Positions 7,887 to 28,265 of a stretch of 36,112 bases of DNA are shown here, piece after piece. The DNA is taken from positions 1 through 36,112 of the forward strand of contig CALUYU010000019.1 of assembly GCA_944325075.1 (NCBI GenBank). Reading direction: 5' to 3'. Positions within the stretch are counted from its first letter, which is position 1, and each line of letters starts with the position of its first letter. The DNA is from Candidatus Gastranaerophilales bacterium. GTDB taxonomy: Bacteria > Cyanobacteriota > Vampirovibrionia > Gastranaerophilales > Gastranaerophilaceae. The notes below the pieces were generated by a model, which saw nothing but the letters and a program-made list of their open reading frames with translations, ran no database searches and was not told the DNA's origin. The position numbers and the translations under genes were made by a program.

Positions 7887-7994
7887 ATGGAAAAGTCAAG
7901 TATAGTATGGTATACGGGGGGGGGGGTAACGAACCTCAAGGGAGACAAGGGCTTTTGTCAAAATTGCTTTCCTCCATATCAAAGTGTTCTGTAG
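7887..7994 (+). CDS. Out-of-phase leader frame of prepilin B
   Basis: ATG 7887 has the best ribosome binding site at this locus (AAAAAAGGGGG, seven-base spacer) and lies 24 bases after a consensus promoter. Read as given, it runs through the 11-G tract and stops at 7992-7994 after 35 codons. One extra G, or two fewer, would put it in frame with prepilin B and give a 304-residue fusion. I therefore read it as the true start of prepilin B in an 'off' phase, not as a separate peptide. Confidence 0.45.
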   Translation: MEKSSIVWYTGGGVTNLKGDKGFCQNCFPPYQSVL

Positions 7995-8800
7995 CAAATA
8001 ATGTAGGTAGGGGAGGGATTCCCAAAACTACAAAAAACTCCTACTCGCCTTGCAGGACCGCATTCACTTTGGCTGAGGTACTTATAACTTTAGGCATAAT
8101 CGGAGTTGTTGCTGCTATGATTTTGCCAACTTTGATAGCCAATTATCAGAAACAAGAAGTTGTAACAAGATTAAAATATTCATTTAATATTTTTAGTAAT
8201 ATGATACGCCGTGCTGAGGCCGACTATGGAAATATTACTGAATGGGGGCTTGAGTTTGAAGGTGGAGAAGAGTATGATATTGAAAATAATAGAATTTTGC
8301 GTGCGGAGTTTGTCTCAAAATACATGCTTCCTTATCTAAATGGTGCTCACTTTTCCGCTGCTAAATCTCTGGCCGATTGTGGATATAAAAGAACAATTAC
8401 ATATCCTGCAGGATCACCTTGGATTTCTATTGATAAGGCTGCACCAATATTAGAATTTCCAAACGGAATAATTGCTCTGATTAGCGGAGCAACTGGTACT
8501 GACTCATCAGACCCAAACAAAAAATTGGTTTTTGGTTTTACTTTTGTTATTGATATAAATGGCCCGAGCGGACAAAATTGTTTAGGTCGTGACGTTTTTT
8601 TTGTGACTATTCCTTTTGCAGTAAATACACGAGTTTTATTTTTCCAATATTATTCTCTTGATGCTCAAAAAAGGATGACAATTAGTAAAAGTAGAAGCTC
8701 GAGACCTTATTTGATAAATGACTGTAAAACTTACGGAGCAAATTGCGGATATTTAATTCAGCAGGATGGTTGGCAGATTAAAGATGACTATCCGTGGTAA
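7907..8800 (+). CDS. Prepilin-like protein B with phase-variable 5' end
   Basis: Residues 52-70 carry A-F-T-L-A-E-V-L-I-T-L-G-I-I-G-V-V-A-A, the cleavage site and hydrophobic helix of a type IV prepilin or pseudopilin. The globular part ends Y-L-I-Q-Q-D-G-W-Q-I-K-D-D-Y-P-W, close to the end of prepilin A. The words before the core, YSPCRTAFTLAEV, also match NSPRKFAFTLAEV of A. ATG 7907 has no ribosome binding site and no other Met precedes the core. The well-equipped ATG 7887 is out of frame because of an 11-G run at 7916-7926. The protein would sit in a surface pilus or a pseudopilus. A hairpin follows the stop. Confidence 0.8.
   Translation: MVYGGGGNEPQGRQGLLSKLLSSISKCSVANNVGRGGIPKTTKNSYSPCRTAFTLAEVLITLGIIGVVAAMILPTLIANYQKQEVVTRLKYSFNIFSNMIRRAEADYGNITEWGLEFEGGEEYDIENNRILRAEFVSKYMLPYLNGAHFSAAKSLADCGYKRTITYPAGSPWISIDKAAPILEFPNGIIALISGATGTDSSDPNKKLVFGFTFVIDINGPSGQNCLGRDVFFVTIPFAVNTRVLFFQYYSLDAQKRMTISKSRSSRPYLINDCKTYGANCGYLIQQDGWQIKDDYPW
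7916..7926 (+). repeat. 11-G homopolymer (candidate contingency tract)
   Basis: Eleven consecutive Gs in AT-rich DNA lie 27 bases inside the reading frame from ATG 7887. The three possible lengths modulo 3 decide whether that start reads into prepilin B. Similar poly-G tracts cause phase variation of surface genes in Campylobacter and other bacteria. Confidence 0.8.
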
Positions 8801-8824
8801 TATTTTACTTTTATCTGTTTTTAT

Positions 8825-8871
8825 AAACCCTGGCCGGTTATACATATAAATGTAAAATCCGGTCAGGGTTT
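8825..8871. terminator. Hairpin between convergent genes
   Basis: AAACCCTGGCCGG (8825-8837) pairs with CCGGTCAGGGTTT (8859-8871) with one G-U pair. It lies between the convergent ends of prepilin B and the GNAT-like gene and could end both, although the T run is poor. Confidence 0.6.
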
Positions 8872-8886
8872 GTATTTGACAAATTT

Positions 8887-9438
8887 TTAGACAGTAAAAT
8901 ATAGATTATTTGAGTTTCTTTCTATTGGGCGGAATCCGTTTTTCATATAAAAATCTAAAGTTGAATATAAAGAATGCAGACTTATTTCTTTACCTTTGTA
9001 TAAATCCTTTATGAAGTCGAGGAACGCTGTTCCTATCCCTTTATAAATTCTGTTTTCTGACTCGAACATGTTATCCGGCTGAACCTGAAGATAGTCAAGA
9101 TAAATAGAATTTTCTTTCGGATGTTTAAGTATAATTTTCCCTTCAGCAATTATGTCTTCTGCATTTAGATTATTAAAATTGTTTTTCTGGTGTGTTAAAA
9201 TGAAAAATTTAATTTTTTCATCTTTGATTGCTATATTATTAATGGCATTGGCATCTTTATAAATATTGTTAGAAAAGTTCCCCTGCCATAAGTCATTGAC
9301 TTCGCGTAAAGCTTCTAAATCATGAAAATTCAGAGGGTCGGCTTCTATAACCGATATTTTTTGTGTAATATTAATCGGTTTTACTCTTTTAATATTTATA
9401 TGAGAAATAAAGTTTCCGGTGAAAGTGATGTTGTCCAT
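8887..9438 (-). CDS. GNAT-like acetyltransferase (putative)
   Basis: A 183-residue protein. The C-terminal half has the N-acetyltransferase pattern: a strand containing IYLDYLQVQP (acceptor-side strand beta 4), then NRIYKGIGTAFLDFIKDLY, which fits the acetyl-CoA pyrophosphate loop (Q/R-x-x-G-x-G/A) and its helix, and FYMKNGFRPI, the usual beta 5-alpha 4 turn. The substrate is unknown. I start at the second Met (DNITFTGNF), with AAGGG upstream; an in-frame ATG 11 codons earlier overlaps the upstream gene. The N-terminus shares an I-[ST]-F-T-[GS] motif with that neighbour, 19 bases away, and the two are probably co-transcribed. Confidence 0.6.
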   Translation of the reverse strand: MDNITFTGNFISHINIKRVKPINITQKISVIEADPLNFHDLEALREVNDLWQGNFSNNIYKDANAINNIAIKDEKIKFFILTHQKNNFNNLNAEDIIAEGKIILKHPKENSIYLDYLQVQPDNMFESENRIYKGIGTAFLDFIKDLYKGKEISLHSLYSTLDFYMKNGFRPIERNSNNLYFTV

Positions 9439-11602: not shown

Positions 11603-12253
11603 ATGATTAAAGGAACTAAGAACGCGTTTACTTTGGCAGAAGTATTGATTACGCTTGGTATTATCGGTGTTGTAGCAGCTATGACAATGCCTACATTGTT
11701 GAACTCTACTCAAGGTGCTCAATATAGAACTGCATTTAAGAAAGCTTTATCTGTATTATCTCAGGCTGTAGTTTTGAACGTAGCTCTTGATGACTATGAT
11801 TTGAGCCAAGCTACTGCTTCTGGTTCAGCAGAAACAGATGGAACTTCTGCATCATTGTATAACATGTTCAACAACAGAATGAACGTTGTAAGTACTTCTA
11901 ACGGTGAAGGTTGGGGACCTACTGATGCTAAATTTGGTGCTGATACTACTAGTAACTACACATTGTTCTTTAACGATGGTATTACTCTTACATTCCCTAA
12001 ATACAACATCGGTACAGGCAAAACTAGATCTGCTCAATGTACTGAAGTCAACAAATGTTATGGTGTAGTTGACGTTAACGGCAGCAAGAACCCTAACAAA
12101 CTTGTTACTTGTGATGGATCTACAGATTACAAAGCAACTGATGATGATTGTGTAGTATCTAATCCAACAGATATTTATCCGATTTACATGTATGATCAAA
12201 CAATTCTTCCTGCAACAGCTGCAGCTAGAGCTGTTATGTACAAAGGTAAATAA
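11603..12253 (+). CDS. Prepilin-like protein C (candidate major pilin)
   Basis: The 216-residue protein starts MIKGTKN-A|FTLAEVLITLGIIGVVAA, a textbook short-leader prepilin with cleavage before Phe. The globular domain is rich in small residues and has two Cys pairs (CTEVNKC; CDGSTDYKATDDDC), the second in the position of a pilin D-region disulphide loop. It lacks the DGWxIKDDYPW ending of A and B. Expression signals are complete: a consensus promoter, AACGGAGG with a normal spacer, and a terminator. Codon choice (GCT, ACT, AAC, GGT) is more uniform than in the neighbours, as in highly expressed genes. This is the best candidate for an abundant pilin or pseudopilin. It stands alone, with no assembly genes nearby. 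Confidence 0.88.
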   Translation: MIKGTKNAFTLAEVLITLGIIGVVAAMTMPTLLNSTQGAQYRTAFKKALSVLSQAVVLNVALDDYDLSQATASGSAETDGTSASLYNMFNNRMNVVSTSNGEGWGPTDAKFGADTTSNYTLFFNDGITLTFPKYNIGTGKTRSAQCTEVNKCYGVVDVNGSKNPNKLVTCDGSTDYKATDDDCVVSNPTDIYPIYMYDQTILPATAAARAVMYKGK

Positions 12254-20853: not shown

Positions 20854-22080
20854 TTATTTTATTATAAGTTTTGCAAATTTTCTTTTTCCTGCTTGTAATA
20901 CTACCGGGTCTGAGGATTCAATTACATAAGCCATATCGGTAATTTTGTTCCCGTCCAGTTTTACTCCTCCGCCTTGAATAAGCCTTTTACCCTCTGAACG
21001 GCTTTGGACAAATTTAAGGTCTGTTAGAAGATCAAGAATATTTTTTCCTGATTCAACTTCTACTTCTTCAATATCCTCCGGAATTCCTTTGTTGGATACG
21101 ACATTTATAAATTCTTCCTGAGCCTTGTCCGCTCCTTCTTTCCCGTGGTATTCTTCAGTTATTGTATGTGCAAGCTTTAATTTTATATCACGCGGATTTT
21201 TAGAGTTTGTTTTTATTTGTTCATCAATAATTTTTAATTCTTGATCTGAAATATCTGTTAATAATTCATAATATCTTGTTATTAATGTATCTGGAATACT
21301 CATTAACTTGCCAAACATGTCTTTTGCACTGTCTGTTAATGAAATACAGTGTTCCGGGTATGTTTTTGACATCTTAACAAGGCCGTCGGTTCCTTCAAGC
21401 AAAGGAAGAAGCATAACCATTTGAGGATATTTTTTTCCGTAAGCAGCCTGGATGTCGCGGCCAAGAAGAGTATTAAATCGTTGATCTGTTCCGCCAAGTT
21501 CAATATCTGCATCTACAACAACAGAATCATATGCCTGCATAAGAGGATAGAAAAATTCATGAACAGATATTGGCCGGCCTTCTGAATATCGTTTTGCAAA
21601 GTCATCGCGGGTCATCATTTGTGCAACTGTTATTTGTGCTGATAATTTTAAAAGTTCAATAAAACTCATTTTATGCAGCCAGTCTGCGTTGTTTGTAACT
21701 TCCGCTTTTGTAACATCAACAACTTTTGACATCTGTTCAAAATATGACTTTGCATTTTCTTCAACTTGTTCTTTTGTTAAGGACGGACGGGTTTCTGATT
21801 TCCCTGAAGGATCACCTACCATTGCGGTTGCCCCTCCTACAATCAAAACAATTTTGTGCCCAAGTTTTTGGAACTCTCTGAGTTTTCTCATAACAACTGT
21901 GTGCCCCAGATGCAGATCCGGTCTTGTCGGATCCATTCCAAGTTTTACCCGTAACGGTGTATTGGTATCCTTGGCATGTTGTAATTTCACAGCAAGCTCT
22001 TCTATGCCGCCTGGCAAAACTTCTGCACTTCTTGAAAGTTTTTTTGCTTGTTCTATAAATTCTTCTCTTATATCAACCAT
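20854..22080 (-). CDS. tyrS: Tyrosyl-tRNA synthetase
   Basis: TyrRS charges tRNA-Tyr. The 408 residues comprise a class I Rossmann domain with the HIGH-type HLGHTVVMRKLREFQ, IVGGATAMVGDPSGKSETR, the tyrosine-binding QAYDSVVVDADIELGGTDQR and the KMSKS loop as LVKMSKTYPE. A C-terminal S4 RNA-binding domain (DLLTDLKFVQSRSEGKRLIQ, then GGVKLDGNKI) follows. The pattern is that of the TyrZ-like bacterial form rather than classical Bacillus TyrS. GGAG precedes the start. It heads a run with cysE and a small exported protein, and is divergent from the flagellar genes. Confidence 0.95.
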   Translation of the reverse strand: MVDIREEFIEQAKKLSRSAEVLPGGIEELAVKLQHAKDTNTPLRVKLGMDPTRPDLHLGHTVVMRKLREFQKLGHKIVLIVGGATAMVGDPSGKSETRPSLTKEQVEENAKSYFEQMSKVVDVTKAEVTNNADWLHKMSFIELLKLSAQITVAQMMTRDDFAKRYSEGRPISVHEFFYPLMQAYDSVVVDADIELGGTDQRFNTLLGRDIQAAYGKKYPQMVMLLPLLEGTDGLVKMSKTYPEHCISLTDSAKDMFGKLMSIPDTLITRYYELLTDISDQELKIIDEQIKTNSKNPRDIKLKLAHTITEEYHGKEGADKAQEEFINVVSNKGIPEDIEEVEVESGKNILDLLTDLKFVQSRSEGKRLIQGGGVKLDGNKITDMAYVIESSDPVVLQAGKRKFAKLIIK

Positions 22081-22329
22081 TTCTATTCTCCTTATTTATT
22101 TTTATTGTAGCAAAAACATAAAAATAATGAAAAAACGAGATTAATAAATTGGGAAAATTTAGCGGATAACTTTTAAAAACTCTTTAAGTGGAAAAAATCA
22201 TCTATTAAATATATTTTTTTGTTGATTTTTGAAAAAAATACATTAAAAGGTTGATGTTATGCATTAATAAATACATTATTGTATTTATGGGGAAATATCA
22301 AAAGACTTGGTACAGAGGGATAATAAAAG

Positions 22330-23559
22330 TTGGTAAGAACAGCAGATAAAAAACATAAAATAGAAAGTCCCAGCGTATTATATCAGGAATACGACTGGTT
22401 CAAAAAGCTTTTTCCTTTGGGATTGCAAAAATCCGCGGATGACTTTTTCCTGCCCGGTTTGAGATGCGAATTGGTTGGTGTCAGTAAGAATATTAATCTG
22501 CTTCAGTCAAAAGAAGGTTATTTTGTTACTAAAATTCGTATTGACAAGTTTTACGATATGTACTTGAGAATTTCCGAACTTGCTATTCCTATGCTTCTTA
22601 CTAAAGGGCTTGGCAAGTCCGGCAGACCTTTTGATATTAATAAACTTACTAAATTGGAGCAGAATGTATTAACCGGTTTTAATGATTACGTTTACAAAAT
22701 AATTGTACAATTTTTTGATCCGCCGCCTGTGGTCAATTTTGTAAGAACAAATTTTGATATAACCCACTTGACTTTTGTGATAAGAGATGAGGACGCAAAC
22801 ACAGCCGGCCGGTTTATTGTATCGGTGCCGGATGGAAGATTGTCTCCCCAAAAAGTCGAGATAGGAGAGGATAAATTTGATTATGAAGACTTTTATGAAT
22901 GTCATACAAATGCCCTTGTAAGAATTGGTAAAACCCGTTTTTCGGTGATGGAGCTTAAGGATCTTGAGCCCGGAGATTTGGTTATTCTTGAGGATAGTGA
23001 CATAAGGCATTTGACATTATTTATAAATGATGAAACTAAAACTGTATTGATAGAACCTAATATGAATATAGAATTCCCATTTAATGAAAATAACGGAGGT
23101 AACGGAATGGCGAATGTAGCAGAAGCTAAAAATTTATGGGACAGTATTGAAGTTGATATGTATGCCGAGCTTGATCCGGTAAAGATTTCTCTTGGGGATT
23201 TGAAAAAAATTGAAAAGGGGCTGGTTGTTGATGTTGCAGCTCTTTACGAAAATAAAGTTACTCTGAGGGTTGAAAATAAAGTTATCGGGCATGGCGAACT
23301 TGTAATCGTGAATGACCGGTACGGCGTTAAGATTACAGATATTGAAGAGAAAGCACCTGCACAACAGGCAATTCCGGCCGTAAAAACCTCTGTCGCAGCA
23401 GAACAGCAGGCTAATGAAATTTTACCTGAAGAAAATTCTGCCTCAGATGACCAGGTGTTGCCGGAAGGTGCGGCTCCTGATGAGGCTGCACCGGCTCCGG
23501 GAAATGAAGAAGAAGAATTTGACTACAGCGACTTTGAGCTGGAAGATGAAGATATTTAA
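22330..23559 (+). CDS. FliM/FliN-like switch protein (SctQ-type double SPOA)
   Basis: A 409-residue C-ring protein for a flagellar motor or type III export machine. Residues about 60-190 resemble the FliM/SctQ middle domain (FDINKLTKLEQNVLTGFNDY). SPOA domain 1 is about 192-250 (ALVRIGKTRFSVMELKDLEP) and SPOA domain 2, FliN-like, about 270-338 (VKISLGDLKKIEKGLVVDV, then GHGELVIVNDRYGVKITDI). An acidic Pro/Glu tail ends the protein. The N-terminus lacks the LSQxEIDALL CheY-binding motif of FliM. The start is a TTG with GAGGGAT upstream. An internal ATG at codon 260 has a perfect GGAGGT site (listed separately). It is followed at 22 bases by a fliO-like gene. Confidence 0.8.
   Translation: MVRTADKKHKIESPSVLYQEYDWFKKLFPLGLQKSADDFFLPGLRCELVGVSKNINLLQSKEGYFVTKIRIDKFYDMYLRISELAIPMLLTKGLGKSGRPFDINKLTKLEQNVLTGFNDYVYKIIVQFFDPPPVVNFVRTNFDITHLTFVIRDEDANTAGRFIVSVPDGRLSPQKVEIGEDKFDYEDFYECHTNALVRIGKTRFSVMELKDLEPGDLVILEDSDIRHLTLFINDETKTVLIEPNMNIEFPFNENNGGNGMANVAEAKNLWDSIEVDMYAELDPVKISLGDLKKIEKGLVVDVAALYENKVTLRVENKVIGHGELVIVNDRYGVKITDIEEKAPAQQAIPAVKTSVAAEQQANEILPEENSASDDQVLPEGAAPDEAAPAPGNEEEEFDYSDFELEDEDI
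23095..23109 (+). promoter_or_regulatory. Internal ribosome binding site and start in the fliM/N-like gene
   Basis: GGAGGT (23095-23100), a perfect match to the anti-Shine-Dalgarno sequence, stands six bases before ATG 23107, which is in frame. It is a better initiation signal than the TTG that starts the whole gene. Confidence 0.7.
23107..23559 (+). CDS. Candidate internally initiated FliN-like product (150 aa)
   Basis: Initiation at ATG 23107 would give a separate 150-residue protein starting MANVAEAKNLWDSIEVDMYA, containing only the second SPOA domain and the acidic tail: a FliN. The well-known parallel is SctQ of type III secretion systems (YscQ, SpaO, SsaQ), where an internal start yields the small C-terminal subunit that joins the full-length protein in the cytoplasmic ring. 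The basis is the ribosome binding site and domain boundary. Expression is not proven. Confidence 0.5.
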   Translation: MANVAEAKNLWDSIEVDMYAELDPVKISLGDLKKIEKGLVVDVAALYENKVTLRVENKVIGHGELVIVNDRYGVKITDIEEKAPAQQAIPAVKTSVAAEQQANEILPEENSASDDQVLPEGAAPDEAAPAPGNEEEEFDYSDFELEDEDI

Positions 23560-23581
23560 TTGAAATATTGAGAGGGATATT

Positions 23582-24136
23582 ATGAGCGGTTACTTAGTTA
23601 ATTTCGGAGTATATATTATGGCCATGACGGGACTTATTTTCTTTGCCCTTATGGTTTATAAGAAATTTTCACAGTTTGGCAGCCCTAAAGCATTAAATTC
23701 CAGATTTCTGAGTGTTGAAGAGACAATATCTATTGCCCCGCGAAAAACGCTTTATGTTGTAAGAGCCGGAAAAGAACGGTTCCTTATTGCAGGAGATATT
23801 GACAAAACAACTCTTATTGCAAAACTTAACGGTCAACAGGGCCGTGAAGATATTTTAAATCAGGATTTAACCGGGGCTGATATTAATCAGTTGCCGGAAT
23901 TCCGTGGGAGGAATATAGTATCACCTGAAATAAATTCTTCACAACAATTAAAAGTTGATGCCGGAAAAATGATACACCAGCGTACAAATTTTGCCGGACA
24001 AAACAATTATGCGCAAGCTTCCCTCAAACATTCAAGCAGTGTTGATGATTTGCCGGTAATAGTGGATTTCCCAAAGAGACCGCACAGTGAGACTGCAAAT
24101 GTTTTACATAATATGGTTAGGAAAATAAGTGAATAG
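23582..24136 (+). CDS. fliO: FliO-like flagellar biosynthesis protein
   Basis: A 184-residue protein with one N-terminal membrane helix (about 7-27, FGVYIMAMTGLIFFALMVY) and a small cytoplasmic domain LSVEETISIAPRKTLYVVRA...FLIAGDI, which fits the FliO pattern of a strand-rich 'LGPKKSLYLVEVGGRxLLLG' core. FliO helps assemble the FliP-FliR export gate. The remaining 90 residues are polar and variable. GAGAGGGAT precedes ATG. The gene sits between the switch protein and fliP, the usual place for fliO, which supports the call despite weak sequence conservation. Confidence 0.7.
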   Translation: MSGYLVNFGVYIMAMTGLIFFALMVYKKFSQFGSPKALNSRFLSVEETISIAPRKTLYVVRAGKERFLIAGDIDKTTLIAKLNGQQGREDILNQDLTGADINQLPEFRGRNIVSPEINSSQQLKVDAGKMIHQRTNFAGQNNYAQASLKHSSSVDDLPVIVDFPKRPHSETANVLHNMVRKISE

Positions 24137-24144
24137 AGGATATT

Positions 24145-24786
24145 ATGGATAATGTTTTAAGAGATATAAACCCTGTACTACAGATATTAATAGTAATGAC
24201 GGTATTTTCCCTAATACCGCTTGTATTCTGCTGTATGACAAGTTTTTTGAGGTTTGTAATAGTATTTTCAATGCTTAAAACAGCATTGGGAACACAATCT
24301 GTACCACCTTCAATTGTTATTATCGGTTTGTCTATGATATTGACCTTTTTCACAATGGGATCGACTTTTCAAAAAATGTATGATATGGGGAATGTTCCTT
24401 ACCAGCAAAACCAAAACATTGTATTAGCGATTGAAGAAGGTTCAAAACCTTTAAAAGAATTTATGATGAAGCAGACAAGAGAATCCGATCTGGCATTTTT
24501 TATCCAGTTATCCCATAAGCAGCCGCCGGCAAGTCCTGATGAGATTACTATATGGCAGGTGGCTCCTGCTTATATTATGAGTGAACTTAAAACTGCTTTT
24601 GAAATCGGGTTTGTAATATTTGTACCGTTTATTGTATTAGACCTTGTTGTTGCAAATATTTTGCTGGCATTAGGTATGTTTATGTTATCTCCGACAATTA
24701 TTTCACTGCCGTTCAAACTCTTAATTTTTATTGCTGTTGACGGCTGGGCGCTAATCGTTCAGGGACTGGTTACAAGTTACAATTAA
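24145..24786 (+). CDS. fliP: Flagellar/type III export gate protein FliP
   Basis: FliP (SctR) forms the core of the export-gate pore with FliQ and FliR in the inner membrane. The 213 residues contain the family signatures: MTSFLRFVIVFSMLKTALGT, ILTFFTMGSTFQKMYD, PLKEFMMKQTRESDLAFF (the TRExDLxxF wording is typical of FliP), YIMSELKTAFEIGFVIFVPF and SPTIISLPFKLLIFIAVDGW. There is no cleavable signal peptide, which E. coli FliP (245 residues) has. AGAGGATATT precedes the start, nine bases after fliO. Confidence 0.95.
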   Translation: MDNVLRDINPVLQILIVMTVFSLIPLVFCCMTSFLRFVIVFSMLKTALGTQSVPPSIVIIGLSMILTFFTMGSTFQKMYDMGNVPYQQNQNIVLAIEEGSKPLKEFMMKQTRESDLAFFIQLSHKQPPASPDEITIWQVAPAYIMSELKTAFEIGFVIFVPFIVLDLVVANILLALGMFMLSPTIISLPFKLLIFIAVDGWALIVQGLVTSYN

Positions 24787-24813
24787 AATAGGGCTGGAGA
24801 AAGGAGCAGGAAT

Positions 24814-25305
24814 ATGATAGAAATTTTAGCTGAATACTTAGCAAAAGGTTTTTTAACGATGCTTGCAATCTCAATGCCGTGTGTACTTGTTGCAGCAGGT
24901 ATCGGGCTTGTTGTAGGTATTTTGCAGGCTGTAACCCAGGTTCAGGAACAGACAATTGCTGCCGCTCCTAAAATTTTAGGCGTTTTTCTCGTAATCGTAA
25001 TCGGAGGTTTCGGTTTTATAAGACTTCTTAATAATCTGTTTATAGACGGAATGGCGCTTGCGTTTAATGTTGTTCCTAAGAACGATACATATGTTCTTTC
25101 TTCTGATTATCATAAGTATACTTCATCTTACGGCGGTCTGGCACCACAGAAACTCAAAAATGAAAGTGATATCGATTATCTGATGAAGAACCCAAATAAG
25201 GTTCCATATATTGATCGTAACGAAAAAATTAAGACGATAAGATCAAACAGAGTGGCAAGTCCTAAACCGGATTTACTGGAAACACAAACTATTAATAGAA
25301 GGTAG
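24814..25305 (+). CDS. fliQ: Export gate protein FliQ with C-terminal extension
   Basis: Residues 1-90 are a complete FliQ (SctS): two membrane helices with AISMPCVLVAAGIGLVVGIL, then QAVTQVQEQTIAAAPKILGV. FliQ packs around FliP and FliR in the export gate. Family members normally end near residue 90. Here about 73 further polar, basic residues follow (SSDYHKYTSSYGGLAPQKLK, NPNKVPYIDRNEKIKTIRSN), with no known domain, probably cytoplasmic. The frame is intact and the downstream gene starts nine bases later. AAAGGAG precedes the ATG. Confidence 0.92.
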   Translation: MIEILAEYLAKGFLTMLAISMPCVLVAAGIGLVVGILQAVTQVQEQTIAAAPKILGVFLVIVIGGFGFIRLLNNLFIDGMALAFNVVPKNDTYVLSSDYHKYTSSYGGLAPQKLKNESDIDYLMKNPNKVPYIDRNEKIKTIRSNRVASPKPDLLETQTINRR

Positions 25306-25314
25306 GAGGTTTGA

Positions 25315-26103
25315 GTGGATCATTTTTATACTGAACTTTCAAAATTACTTCCGAACTTAAATGCTTGTTTATTATCCGGAATTTATATATTTTCAAGAAT
25401 AATAGGGTTCTTTAGGTTTTCCCCGGTTTTTAACCGAAAGGAAATTCCGGGCATGGTAAAACTTGCATTGGCCTTGATGTTTACGGTAATCCTGATAGGC
25501 TTAATAAATCCCGGGGTAGCAGATGTAAATACTGCTAAGGATTCTATGCTCTTATCTATAATACTGAATTTTGCAGTCGGTGCAATTATCGGTTATCTGG
25601 CTCAGCTGATACTAATCGCTGTTGAGGCCGGGGCTGATATGATTAATATGCAGATGGGACTTTCTTCTGCCATGGTATTGGATCCGACAACTTCTTCCCA
25701 GGTATCAATTCTTACAAAACTTTTTTCGCTTTTGGGGCTTTTAATTTTTATTGAATTGGGTGGTGTTTATTGGTTAATACAAGCATTATTAAGAAGTTTC
25801 GAAATATTTCCACTGTATGCAACTTCATTACCTTTGTCTCAAATAGTTAATTTTGATTATCTGATTAAAATGACTTCAAATGTATTATTTATGGGGCTGC
25901 AAATTGCTTCTCCGGTGCTTCTTGCAACACTCGGCCAGGATATTATCCTTGGTGTAATTTCCAAAACAGCTCCTCAGGTAAACGTTTTTCAATTAAGTTT
26001 CTTATTCAAACCGGTTTTTGGGGCGGCAATTTTGGTATGGATTATGCCTATGCTCCTTAACGTTATAGGAGATTATTTCCTTAGTTATTCTCATATTTTT
26101 TAA
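25315..26103 (+). CDS. fliR: Export gate protein FliR
   Basis: FliR (SctT) completes the FliP5-FliQ4-FliR1 export gate. The 262-residue polytopic protein shows the family pattern: an N-terminal helix, SRIIGFFRFSPVFNRKEIPG, the NFAVGAIIGYLAQLILIAVE segment, AGADMINMQMGLSSAMVLDP and a final helix pair. The start is GTG with AGGAGG five bases before it. It is the last gene of the run. flhB and flhA, which often follow, are absent here; a bidirectional terminator and a convergent SLH gene come next. Confidence 0.93.
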   Translation: MDHFYTELSKLLPNLNACLLSGIYIFSRIIGFFRFSPVFNRKEIPGMVKLALALMFTVILIGLINPGVADVNTAKDSMLLSIILNFAVGAIIGYLAQLILIAVEAGADMINMQMGLSSAMVLDPTTSSQVSILTKLFSLLGLLIFIELGGVYWLIQALLRSFEIFPLYATSLPLSQIVNFDYLIKMTSNVLFMGLQIASPVLLATLGQDIILGVISKTAPQVNVFQLSFLFKPVFGAAILVWIMPMLLNVIGDYFLSYSHIF

Positions 26104-26151
26104 ATTTGTAAGATGCTATTATATAAATTTTTAAAGAGAAAATCAGAAAGA

Positions 26152-26180
26152 AAAAACCGCCCTTGTTAAGGACGGTTTTT
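26152..26180. terminator. Bidirectional terminator between fliR and SLH gene
   Basis: AAAAACCGCCCTT (26152-26164) and AAGGACGGTTTTT (26168-26180) pair with one mismatch around GTT. A-rich and T-rich ends on both sides allow it to end both convergent genes. Confidence 0.8.
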
Positions 26181-26219
26181 CCGGCGTACGAATGACTATT
26201 TCTGTTCGCTGTATAATTT

Positions 26220-28265
26220 TTATTCATTACAGCCGAAGGCAATAGTAACGTGTTCTCTTGGATTAACTGCTGAGATTTTGTATCCCTTAGGGTCAACAAG
26301 GTAAGCAAATTCGTCGCCTGTTGTTTGGAATAAACCAACTGTACCTGATACGGCAGTTCTTGTAATATCGATAGGAGCCTTAACAGTTTCCCAAATTCCG
26401 TCTCCAAGGTTTCTAGCAGCAGCTCCGAATTTTCCCTGGAATACGTGGCCTAACATATAACCTGCATCGTTAGATACATTTTCAACTGCGTTACCAAGGT
26501 TAGATATAATACCACCGGTTGTACGGCCGACAATACCAACCAAAGATCCGGCTAAAGTAAACGGTGCTTCAACAAGTCTTGCAACCGGGTTAACTTGTTT
26601 TGACTTGTTAACCTGAGCCTGCAATATTTGTTTTGGCAGATTAGCTTTACAATCACCATTTTTAATGCTTGTGAATGAAAGTTTCAATGCGCCCTTGTTG
26701 CAGCCGGAAGGTCTTATTACTTCAACAACCTGGCCGGTTACGGTTGAACCGCAAGGGAATGTTACACCGTTGATGGTAATATCTTCAAGAGTGTTAGCTC
26801 TAAAGTATTGACCAACGTGAGATGATTTTGCTGTCAACTGGTCGATCATCTTAACTTTTAGTGTCGGAATTTTTACGATTTCTTCATTTTCTACAAAAGC
26901 TTGCTTATCTGTAGGACATGCAGGGCAGACTTCATTGGCTGTTTTAGGGTTTGTATCATAGCCTAATGCAACACGAATTGTCTGAAGCATAGATGCAACA
27001 TCTGCTCTGGAGGCTTCTCTGTTCGGGAAGATCATGTTAGGAGTAGGAGAATCTTTCAACGCTCCGTTTTCCAGTGATTTAGCAACAGGAATTCTTGCCC
27101 ATCCCGGAACTGTGTTACCATCCGCATATTTTGATAAGATTTCGTTTGCGCGGCATTCATCAATATCACAAGTCATACCTTTAGCAATTGATGTTAATGC
27201 TTCTGCACGTGTAACTTTGTGATTTGGTTCAAATGTTCCGTTAGGGTATCCGGCAAGAAGATCTTCATCTACAGCTTTTGCAATAGCGGCGTTAGCCCAG
27301 TTGTTTGCAGGGACATCCTTGAATATAGATTTCTGAGGAAGACCGCAATCGTCTAAGTTAAAACCTTTGACAAGCATCGTTGCAAATTCTGCACGGGTTA
27401 TATCTCTGCCCGGTTTAAACATACCGTCAGGATAACCAACGACTACATTATTTATCGCAAGTTTATCGATGTCACATGATGCCCAATATCCGTTTGGTAC
27501 ATCAGGAAACATACAACCGCTTGAAGGAGCTGCGGCTCCTATGGGAGTGCCGCCCATTGCTGTTTTAAGGTCGAATGGAACCAGCGATTTTTTCACTGCT
27601 TGCATAGAATTTTCGGTCTGTATATCTACCGGGCAGTTATTGCCGTCCATAATTCTTTCGTTTCTTTCGATAGGAATACCGTTATGTCTTGTCGGATCTT
27701 CTCCTAAACAAGGCATTTGAGTTGCAGCTCCGGTTACCTGGCCTTGAGAAGACACTGTTACACCGTTTATGGCTGAAGACATTTGAGGGGCTGCTCCGGT
27801 TGTGGTTGTCTCAGTTGAAAGAATTGAGTTTGCCGGTTCGCCAACATAGTTGTTTGCGCCATATATGGCATTTGGATAGCCGTAAACCTGTTTCATGTCT
27901 TTTCTGTCAGGTTTCCCGGTTCCGGGACATACTGCGCAAGACGGAACAGCTGGTGCATCACATCCTAAATTTTCGTTTTCGCAACCGCAGTCACTTTTCT
28001 TTGGCGGGCAAGGATCTTTGCAAGGGTCTTCACACGGATCTGCTTTTTCGCAGTCGCAATCATCAAAAGACTTGTTGCACTTGTCGCACATTGGTGTCTT
28101 AGTACACGGACAAGCCGGTCCGGTAACTACCGGCAGCGGCTCAGCGCAAGGCGCCTGGGTCACCGGCTCTTGGCTGCACGGGCATGCTGCCATTGCTTGA
28201 TTCAAGGAACACGTTGCTATTCCAACGGCAATTGCAGCTGCCACAGTAAGTTTTTTAATTGTCAT
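26220..28265 (-). CDS. SLH-domain envelope protein with Cys-rich N-terminal region
   Basis: A 681-residue exported protein. The signal peptide is about 1-26 (ends NQAMA). Residues 27-118 hold about 17 Cys, mostly as CPC, DPC and CGC pairs with Pro, Asp and Lys. Three SLH domains follow at about 252-302 (FPDVPNGYWASCDIDKLAIN), 314-362 (FKDVPANNWANAAIAKAV) and 380-435 (YADGNTVPGWARIPVAK). SLH domains anchor proteins to cell-wall polymers, in cyanobacteria and relatives linking the outer membrane to peptidoglycan. The C-terminal 230 residues include a TVTGQVVEVIRPSGCNKGAL domain and a Gly-rich hydrophobic stretch, but no recognisable OprB porin barrel. AAGGAGG precedes the start. It is a single-gene unit, probably abundant. 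Confidence 0.85.
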   Translation of the reverse strand: MTIKKLTVAAAIAVGIATCSLNQAMAACPCSQEPVTQAPCAEPLPVVTGPACPCTKTPMCDKCNKSFDDCDCEKADPCEDPCKDPCPPKKSDCGCENENLGCDAPAVPSCAVCPGTGKPDRKDMKQVYGYPNAIYGANNYVGEPANSILSTETTTTGAAPQMSSAINGVTVSSQGQVTGAATQMPCLGEDPTRHNGIPIERNERIMDGNNCPVDIQTENSMQAVKKSLVPFDLKTAMGGTPIGAAAPSSGCMFPDVPNGYWASCDIDKLAINNVVVGYPDGMFKPGRDITRAEFATMLVKGFNLDDCGLPQKSIFKDVPANNWANAAIAKAVDEDLLAGYPNGTFEPNHKVTRAEALTSIAKGMTCDIDECRANEILSKYADGNTVPGWARIPVAKSLENGALKDSPTPNMIFPNREASRADVASMLQTIRVALGYDTNPKTANEVCPACPTDKQAFVENEEIVKIPTLKVKMIDQLTAKSSHVGQYFRANTLEDITINGVTFPCGSTVTGQVVEVIRPSGCNKGALKLSFTSIKNGDCKANLPKQILQAQVNKSKQVNPVARLVEAPFTLAGSLVGIVGRTTGGIISNLGNAVENVSNDAGYMLGHVFQGKFGAAARNLGDGIWETVKAPIDITRTAVSGTVGLFQTTGDEFAYLVDPKGYKISAVNPREHVTIAFGCNE

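Follow-up and report, generated by a model that had tools for sequence, protein, structure and literature searches.

A natural fliM–fliN fusion with a conserved internal start, the probable ring gene of a filamentless flagellum-type secretion system in Gastranaerophilales

How many proteins are encoded by the fused fliM–fliN gene of a Candidatus Gastranaerophilales bacterium, and which machine they serve, are the questions raised by this locus. The gene lies at 22330 to 23559 on the forward strand of the window, the 36,112-nucleotide stretch of DNA that was analyzed, and all features given below are on that strand. It begins with TTG and encodes a full-length product of 409 aa. The Shine-Dalgarno (SD) sequence of the TTG is weak (AGAGGG, 22314 to 22319, with a 10-base spacer): it pairs with the anti-SD at -6.3 kcal/mol, and its bases are mostly paired in the message. 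Within the gene, between two SPOA (PF01052, FliMN_C) domains, the Gly-Gly codons GGA GGT form a second SD (GGAGGT, 23095 to 23100), which is followed after a spacer of six bases (AACGGA) by an in-frame ATG at codon 260 (23107 to 23109). There, pairing reaches -10.8 kcal/mol, and most SD bases are unpaired. A sequence-only reading had put GGAGGT six bases before an ATG at the SPOA boundary, had judged the TTG to be the weaker signal, and had predicted a separate FliN-like protein from the internal start. Positions, spacing, and relative strength are as it claimed, and the predicted short product of 150 aa (23107 to 23559) is supported by conservation of its start among homologues. When the codons of this gene alone were synonymously resampled, an equal or better site arose in 0.5% of trials.

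Conservation of the internal start was assessed with homologues collected from 144 related genomes, which are drafts and in many cases metagenome-derived, and which gave 95 usable genes within the order Gastranaerophilales. Counted by pairing energy alone, an SD/start of -6 kcal/mol or better was found in the linker of 90 of the 95 genes versus 2.8% of 540 other in-frame ATGs, a contrast that is somewhat flattered because each linker contributes its best of several candidates. Synonymous resampling was therefore run with the same best-of pick. With one sequence per genus (n = 53), the sole means by which phylogeny was handled, the mean was -8.5 observed versus -5.3 resampled (Wilcoxon P = 2e-10), and 52 of the 53 representatives beat the mean of their own synonymous null. 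Gene by gene the test is weak for most (family median P = 0.25), and the ensemble alone is decisive. The site was also present in all 57 further homologues taken from named genomes, mostly Candidatus Gastranaerophilales. Five members of the order have weak sites, and one of them (G047) is essentially without a usable one. Outgroup orders in the class also have the fused gene, but their site is no better than expected by chance (median P = 0.40). Conservation beyond codon constraint, which the sequence-only reading had proposed as its check, was borne out across the order, and the loss from close relatives that it had named as counting against it did not occur; the site was kept. The Gastranaerophilales origin that its proposed check assumed is likewise supported.

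Codon choice in the linker bears on what is being conserved. GGA stands first in 53 of 56 Gly-Gly linkers versus 33% of Gly codons elsewhere, and by genus it does so in 25 of the 28 that have a Gly-Gly linker (P = 7e-10). Gly-Gly pairs elsewhere in the same genes are mostly GGC-first. Moreover, 39 genes lack Gly-Gly at the expected place, and most keep the SD in other codons (GAG GAG GAA, GAA GGA GAA, AAA GGA GAA, or AAG GAG GAT), such that linkers reading EEE, EG, GE, KG, or KE mostly retain a GGAG/AGGAG-type SD. These observations argue against the idea that a Gly-Gly-x-x-Met linker is conserved as a flexible protein hinge and that the SD is its by-product, even though Gly-Gly is common in the linker, any GGN GGN binds the anti-SD fairly well, and synonymous resampling across the family gives a mean of -6.7 kcal/mol. 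We consider a hinge extremely unlikely.

The start codon is conserved together with the SD. Nearly all homologues have ATG or GTG at start-like spacing, mostly 7 bases past GGAGG, and the SD/start pair shifts jointly along the linker, from 5 to 13 codons from a conserved Trp. A Val that replaces the Met immediately downstream of the SD is encoded by GTG, which accounts for 10% of Val codons elsewhere; the site picker takes start codons only, and the GTG result was therefore compared with the alignment. One more Val in the Met column, in L092, is encoded by GTA, and that gene uses a downstream ATG instead. The GTG picked in L057 was an artifact, and the same gene has GGAGGC before an ATG. Perhaps the SD-like sequence causes ribosomes to pause and aids folding without starting translation, and indeed the site coincides with the boundary between the two SPOA domains, where slowing could be useful. 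A pause needs no start codon, however, and would not account for start-like spacing, for GTG as the replacement, or for an SD and start that move together; it is a very improbable explanation. Because codon constraint falls far short of explaining how well the site is kept, we conclude that the gene very probably makes both the full-length protein and the 150-residue FliN-like protein.

What the long product is can be read from its predicted fold. In an AlphaFold model built from 86 sequences (mean pLDDT 79), residues 10 to 180 (22357 to 22869) resemble CheC (1xkr; Z 13.7, rmsd 3.5, 161 aligned) and the middle domain of FliM (4gc8; Z 13.2, rmsd 3.8, 148 aligned), while whole-FliM chains align with a Z of about 12.9 and an rmsd of about 20. 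The first SPOA domain occupies the FliM-type position (residues 192 to 241; 22903 to 23052), giving the modeled order of FliM, a CheC-like middle domain followed by SPOA; its PF01052 match (22915 to 23040) of 22 bits is below cut-off on its own. The second SPOA domain is FliN-type (23140 to 23349), with a PF01052 match of 57.1 bits at 23140 to 23343 (residues 271 to 338). Together, the two domains align with the FliM(SPOA)::FliN structure 4yxb (Z 9.9, rmsd 4.6, 132 aligned), and the best profile matches in the PDB are 4yxb and the FliN structure 8umd. Thus, from predicted fold and the closest sequence-profile structures, the long product is a FliM, made up of the CheC-like domain and SPOA1, fused to a FliN.

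The domain order is that of flagellar FliM plus FliN, which are encoded by separate genes rather than as a one-frame fusion with an internal start. Moreover, the proteins here fall under the flagellar family cut-offs. FliM (TIGR01397) scores 24.3 bits versus a cut-off of 219.6, whereas the flagellar FliM of a relative (G044) scores 228.8, and the short product scores 58.2 bits for FliN (TIGR02480) versus a cut-off of 84.05, although it passes PF01052 (55.5 bits versus 23.8). No CheY-binding peptide was recognizable by eye, and the N terminus is unconserved and disordered. Both products would end in an acidic tail, EEFDYSDFELEDEDI (23512 to 23556), which follows a disordered linker and is nearly invariant, with F397, D398, D401, and F402 each at least 90% conserved. 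The flagellar FliN of G044 lacks this tail, which may be a binding motif.

Whether the gene might instead be a true SctQ, from an injectisome, has to be weighed. The SctQ family (YscQ, Spa33, SpaO, and HrcQ) likewise uses one gene with two SPOA domains and an internal start that yields an SPOA2 protein, likely in a ratio of one long to two short copies, and internal starts are already known for sctQ and hrcQ (PMC8553256). The likeness to SctQ genes that the sequence-only reading had drawn is real, in that PF01052 matches twice at the C terminus of one protein and the internal start is conserved. The SctQ family (TIGR02551) is matched only partially, however, at 51.3 bits versus a cut-off of 100.8, and the N-domain has the CheC/FliM fold. 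Moreover, no type III secretion system (T3SS) secretin was found in the genome, the sole secretin being PilQ-like and encoded in a pilP-Q-B-C-like cluster; the accompanying genes make up a flagellum-type set that includes FliO, FliE, and rod-like proteins; and FlhA lies apart from rhizobial SctV. Membership in SctQ was rejected on family score, N-domain fold, and the lack of a T3SS secretin, and we regard it as highly unlikely. The two-product gene would work like SctQ yet is not a SctQ.

Which machine the gene serves is indicated by its neighbors and by the rest of the genome. Downstream in the same run lie a fliO-like gene (23582 to 24136; PF04347, 29.9 bits) and fliP (24145 to 24786; TIGR01103, 227 bits), both above cut-off, a fliQ/sctS-like gene (24814 to 25305; TIGR01403, 51.8 bits, and TIGR01402, 51.0 bits, both below cut-off), and a fliR-like gene (25315 to 26103; TIGR01400, 158 bits, just below the cut-off of 168.6; TIGR01401, 114.6 bits). 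Past the family match, the FliQ/SctS-like protein continues for about 90 residues at its C terminus. An Rfam search of 22000 to 26300 gave no match. Farther off in the window, genes at 122 to 1222, 7907 to 8800, and 11603 to 12253 have a common pilin-like start, FTLAEVLITLGIIGVVAAM, and form a repeated type IV pilin-like family. Other contigs carry a fliE-fliF-x-fliH-flhA locus (contig 46), fliI (contig 26), and rod/hook-like, FliK-like, and possibly FliJ-like genes (contigs 10 and 49). No FlhB turned up in this assembly; its presence in most relatives of the genus makes an assembly gap likely. FliE, an MS ring, rod/hook-like proteins, and an export gate are thus all represented, FlhB in relatives only.

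Other parts of a flagellum were not found. Flagellin had no match in this genome and is present in 53 of 108 genomes of the order. FliG_C and MotB_plug were also without a match here, and both are present in flagellated relatives. A PF01052 profile search found no second SPOA protein in the genome and hence no separate fliN; the sequence-only reading had held that a dedicated fliN elsewhere, with no internal initiation, would tell against an internal product. We note that in L123 a 349-aa helical protein (7973 to 9019) is encoded between fliF and fliH, where fliG would be expected. It has no significant family match, and its model (7 sequences, pLDDT 74) has no significant match in the PDB, a FliG chain ranking third with an E value of 1.3. 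The protein may be a ring adaptor without a torque domain.

An incomplete set could be the leftover of a decaying flagellum. Earlier work saw these genes and took them for flagella or for flagellum loss (PMC3787301; PMC4040986), the latter being how Soo 2014 read the partial sets of most Gastranaerophilales (PMC4040986), and the set here is indeed incomplete for a flagellum. The flagellated relatives that were examined, however, have two types of FlhA and, in addition to the fused gene, a distinct fliM and fliN; they hold the second set next to a full flagellum. In the FlhA tree, the copy from this genome groups with the second copies of flagellated relatives and outgroup orders (100/100), in a clade of its own apart from the flagellar copies of the same genomes. 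Both clades span the order, although the deep order of the tree is unsure because of long branches. Moreover, the genes retained differ little from genome to genome within the order, their reading frames are open, and the internal start is conserved. The presence of both sets in flagellated relatives led us to reject decay, and we give it scant probability. The sequence-only reading, in which the locus was a flagellar switch gene with mixed SctQ traits, also failed to hold: the genome lacks flagellin, FliG_C, and MotB_plug, flagellated relatives keep separate fliM and fliN as well as the fused gene, and the predicted fold is that of FliM–FliN and not SctQ. Because flagellated relatives carry the set besides a true flagellum and FlhA forms its own clade, we conclude that Gastranaerophilales possess a second T3SS, one without a filament, to which this gene belongs. 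Conservation of the start, the domain anatomy and gene inventory, and the coexistence of two systems are shown by comparison.

A second FHIPEP (FlhA) match occurs in most genomes of the genus, and the sole match of one (G010) is weak (E = 1e-44). In G091, a lytic-transglycosylase-like gene (L240, 11485 to 12102) lies between the rod-like genes of the second system and fliE. In G095, a flagellar fliP-fliR-flhB-flhA run abuts the flhA of the second system, tail to tail (L140, 8907 to 16086). Myxococcales are known to have a T3SS that, like this one, is without secretin, flagellin, and motor and that was earlier called a degenerate relic (Abby and Rocha 2012, PMC3459982). The Myxococcales system lacks FliE, FlgB, and FlgC, however (PMC3459982), whereas FliE and FlgB/C-like proteins are found here, and FlhA here is closer to the flagellar ones.

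How the two products might act together can be proposed. The weak TTG start would give the full-length protein, with a CheC-like FliM middle domain followed by SPOA1 and SPOA2, a FliM/FliN-type pair in one chain. The strong internal GGAGGT/ATG would give an additional, free FliN-like protein consisting of SPOA2 and the tail, and a weak outer start with a strong inner one would fit an excess of the short product. A dimer of free SPOA2 may then join the full-length protein at about one long to two short copies, as in SctQ, which works as one full-length protein with two copies of SctQ-C (PMC4832279). Long and short products together would build a cytoplasmic ring, or pods, for a T3SS that comprises FliE, FliF, FliH, FliI, FlhA, FlhB, FliO-R, and rod/hook-like proteins, without filament, motor, or secretin, and that is separate from the true flagellum of some relatives. 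We infer that the short product is made, and likewise its stoichiometry and its role in export.

Why a fusion should need its own internal start is suggested by artificial fusions. A Salmonella FliM–FliN fusion mutant had few, fragmented rings and was rescued by extra FliN and not by extra FliM (Kihara 1996, cited in PMC4832279). This fusion and the Thermotoga construct 4yxb share the covalent order seen here; the present fusion differs in being natural, order-wide, and apparently self-supplied with free FliN. An internal start on the fused gene may supply the extra FliN that FliM–FliN fusions need. Taken as a whole, a natural fliM–fliN fusion with a conserved internal start and two products, serving as the ring gene of a flagellum-type T3SS without filament, motor, or secretin, is an account in which we have considerable confidence.

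A literature search that took in few subscription papers found no report of a second T3SS in this group or of internal starts in flagellar fliM or fliN. We lean, by a little, toward the broader view that a filamentless, motorless flagellar-type secretion machine is ancient and near-universal in Gastranaerophilales, beside flagella, and that its ring gene reached the SctQ arrangement independently. If so, flagella gave rise to secretion devices by a parallel route. A two-product gene that resembles SctQ but has a FliM-type N-domain and lies outside injectisomes would also bear on the origin of SctQ from FliM and FliN. Ultimately, our results suggest that the "partial flagella" of nonflagellated gut Gastranaerophilales are a conserved second T3SS, and annotations and claims of flagellum loss in the group would therefore need to be reread.
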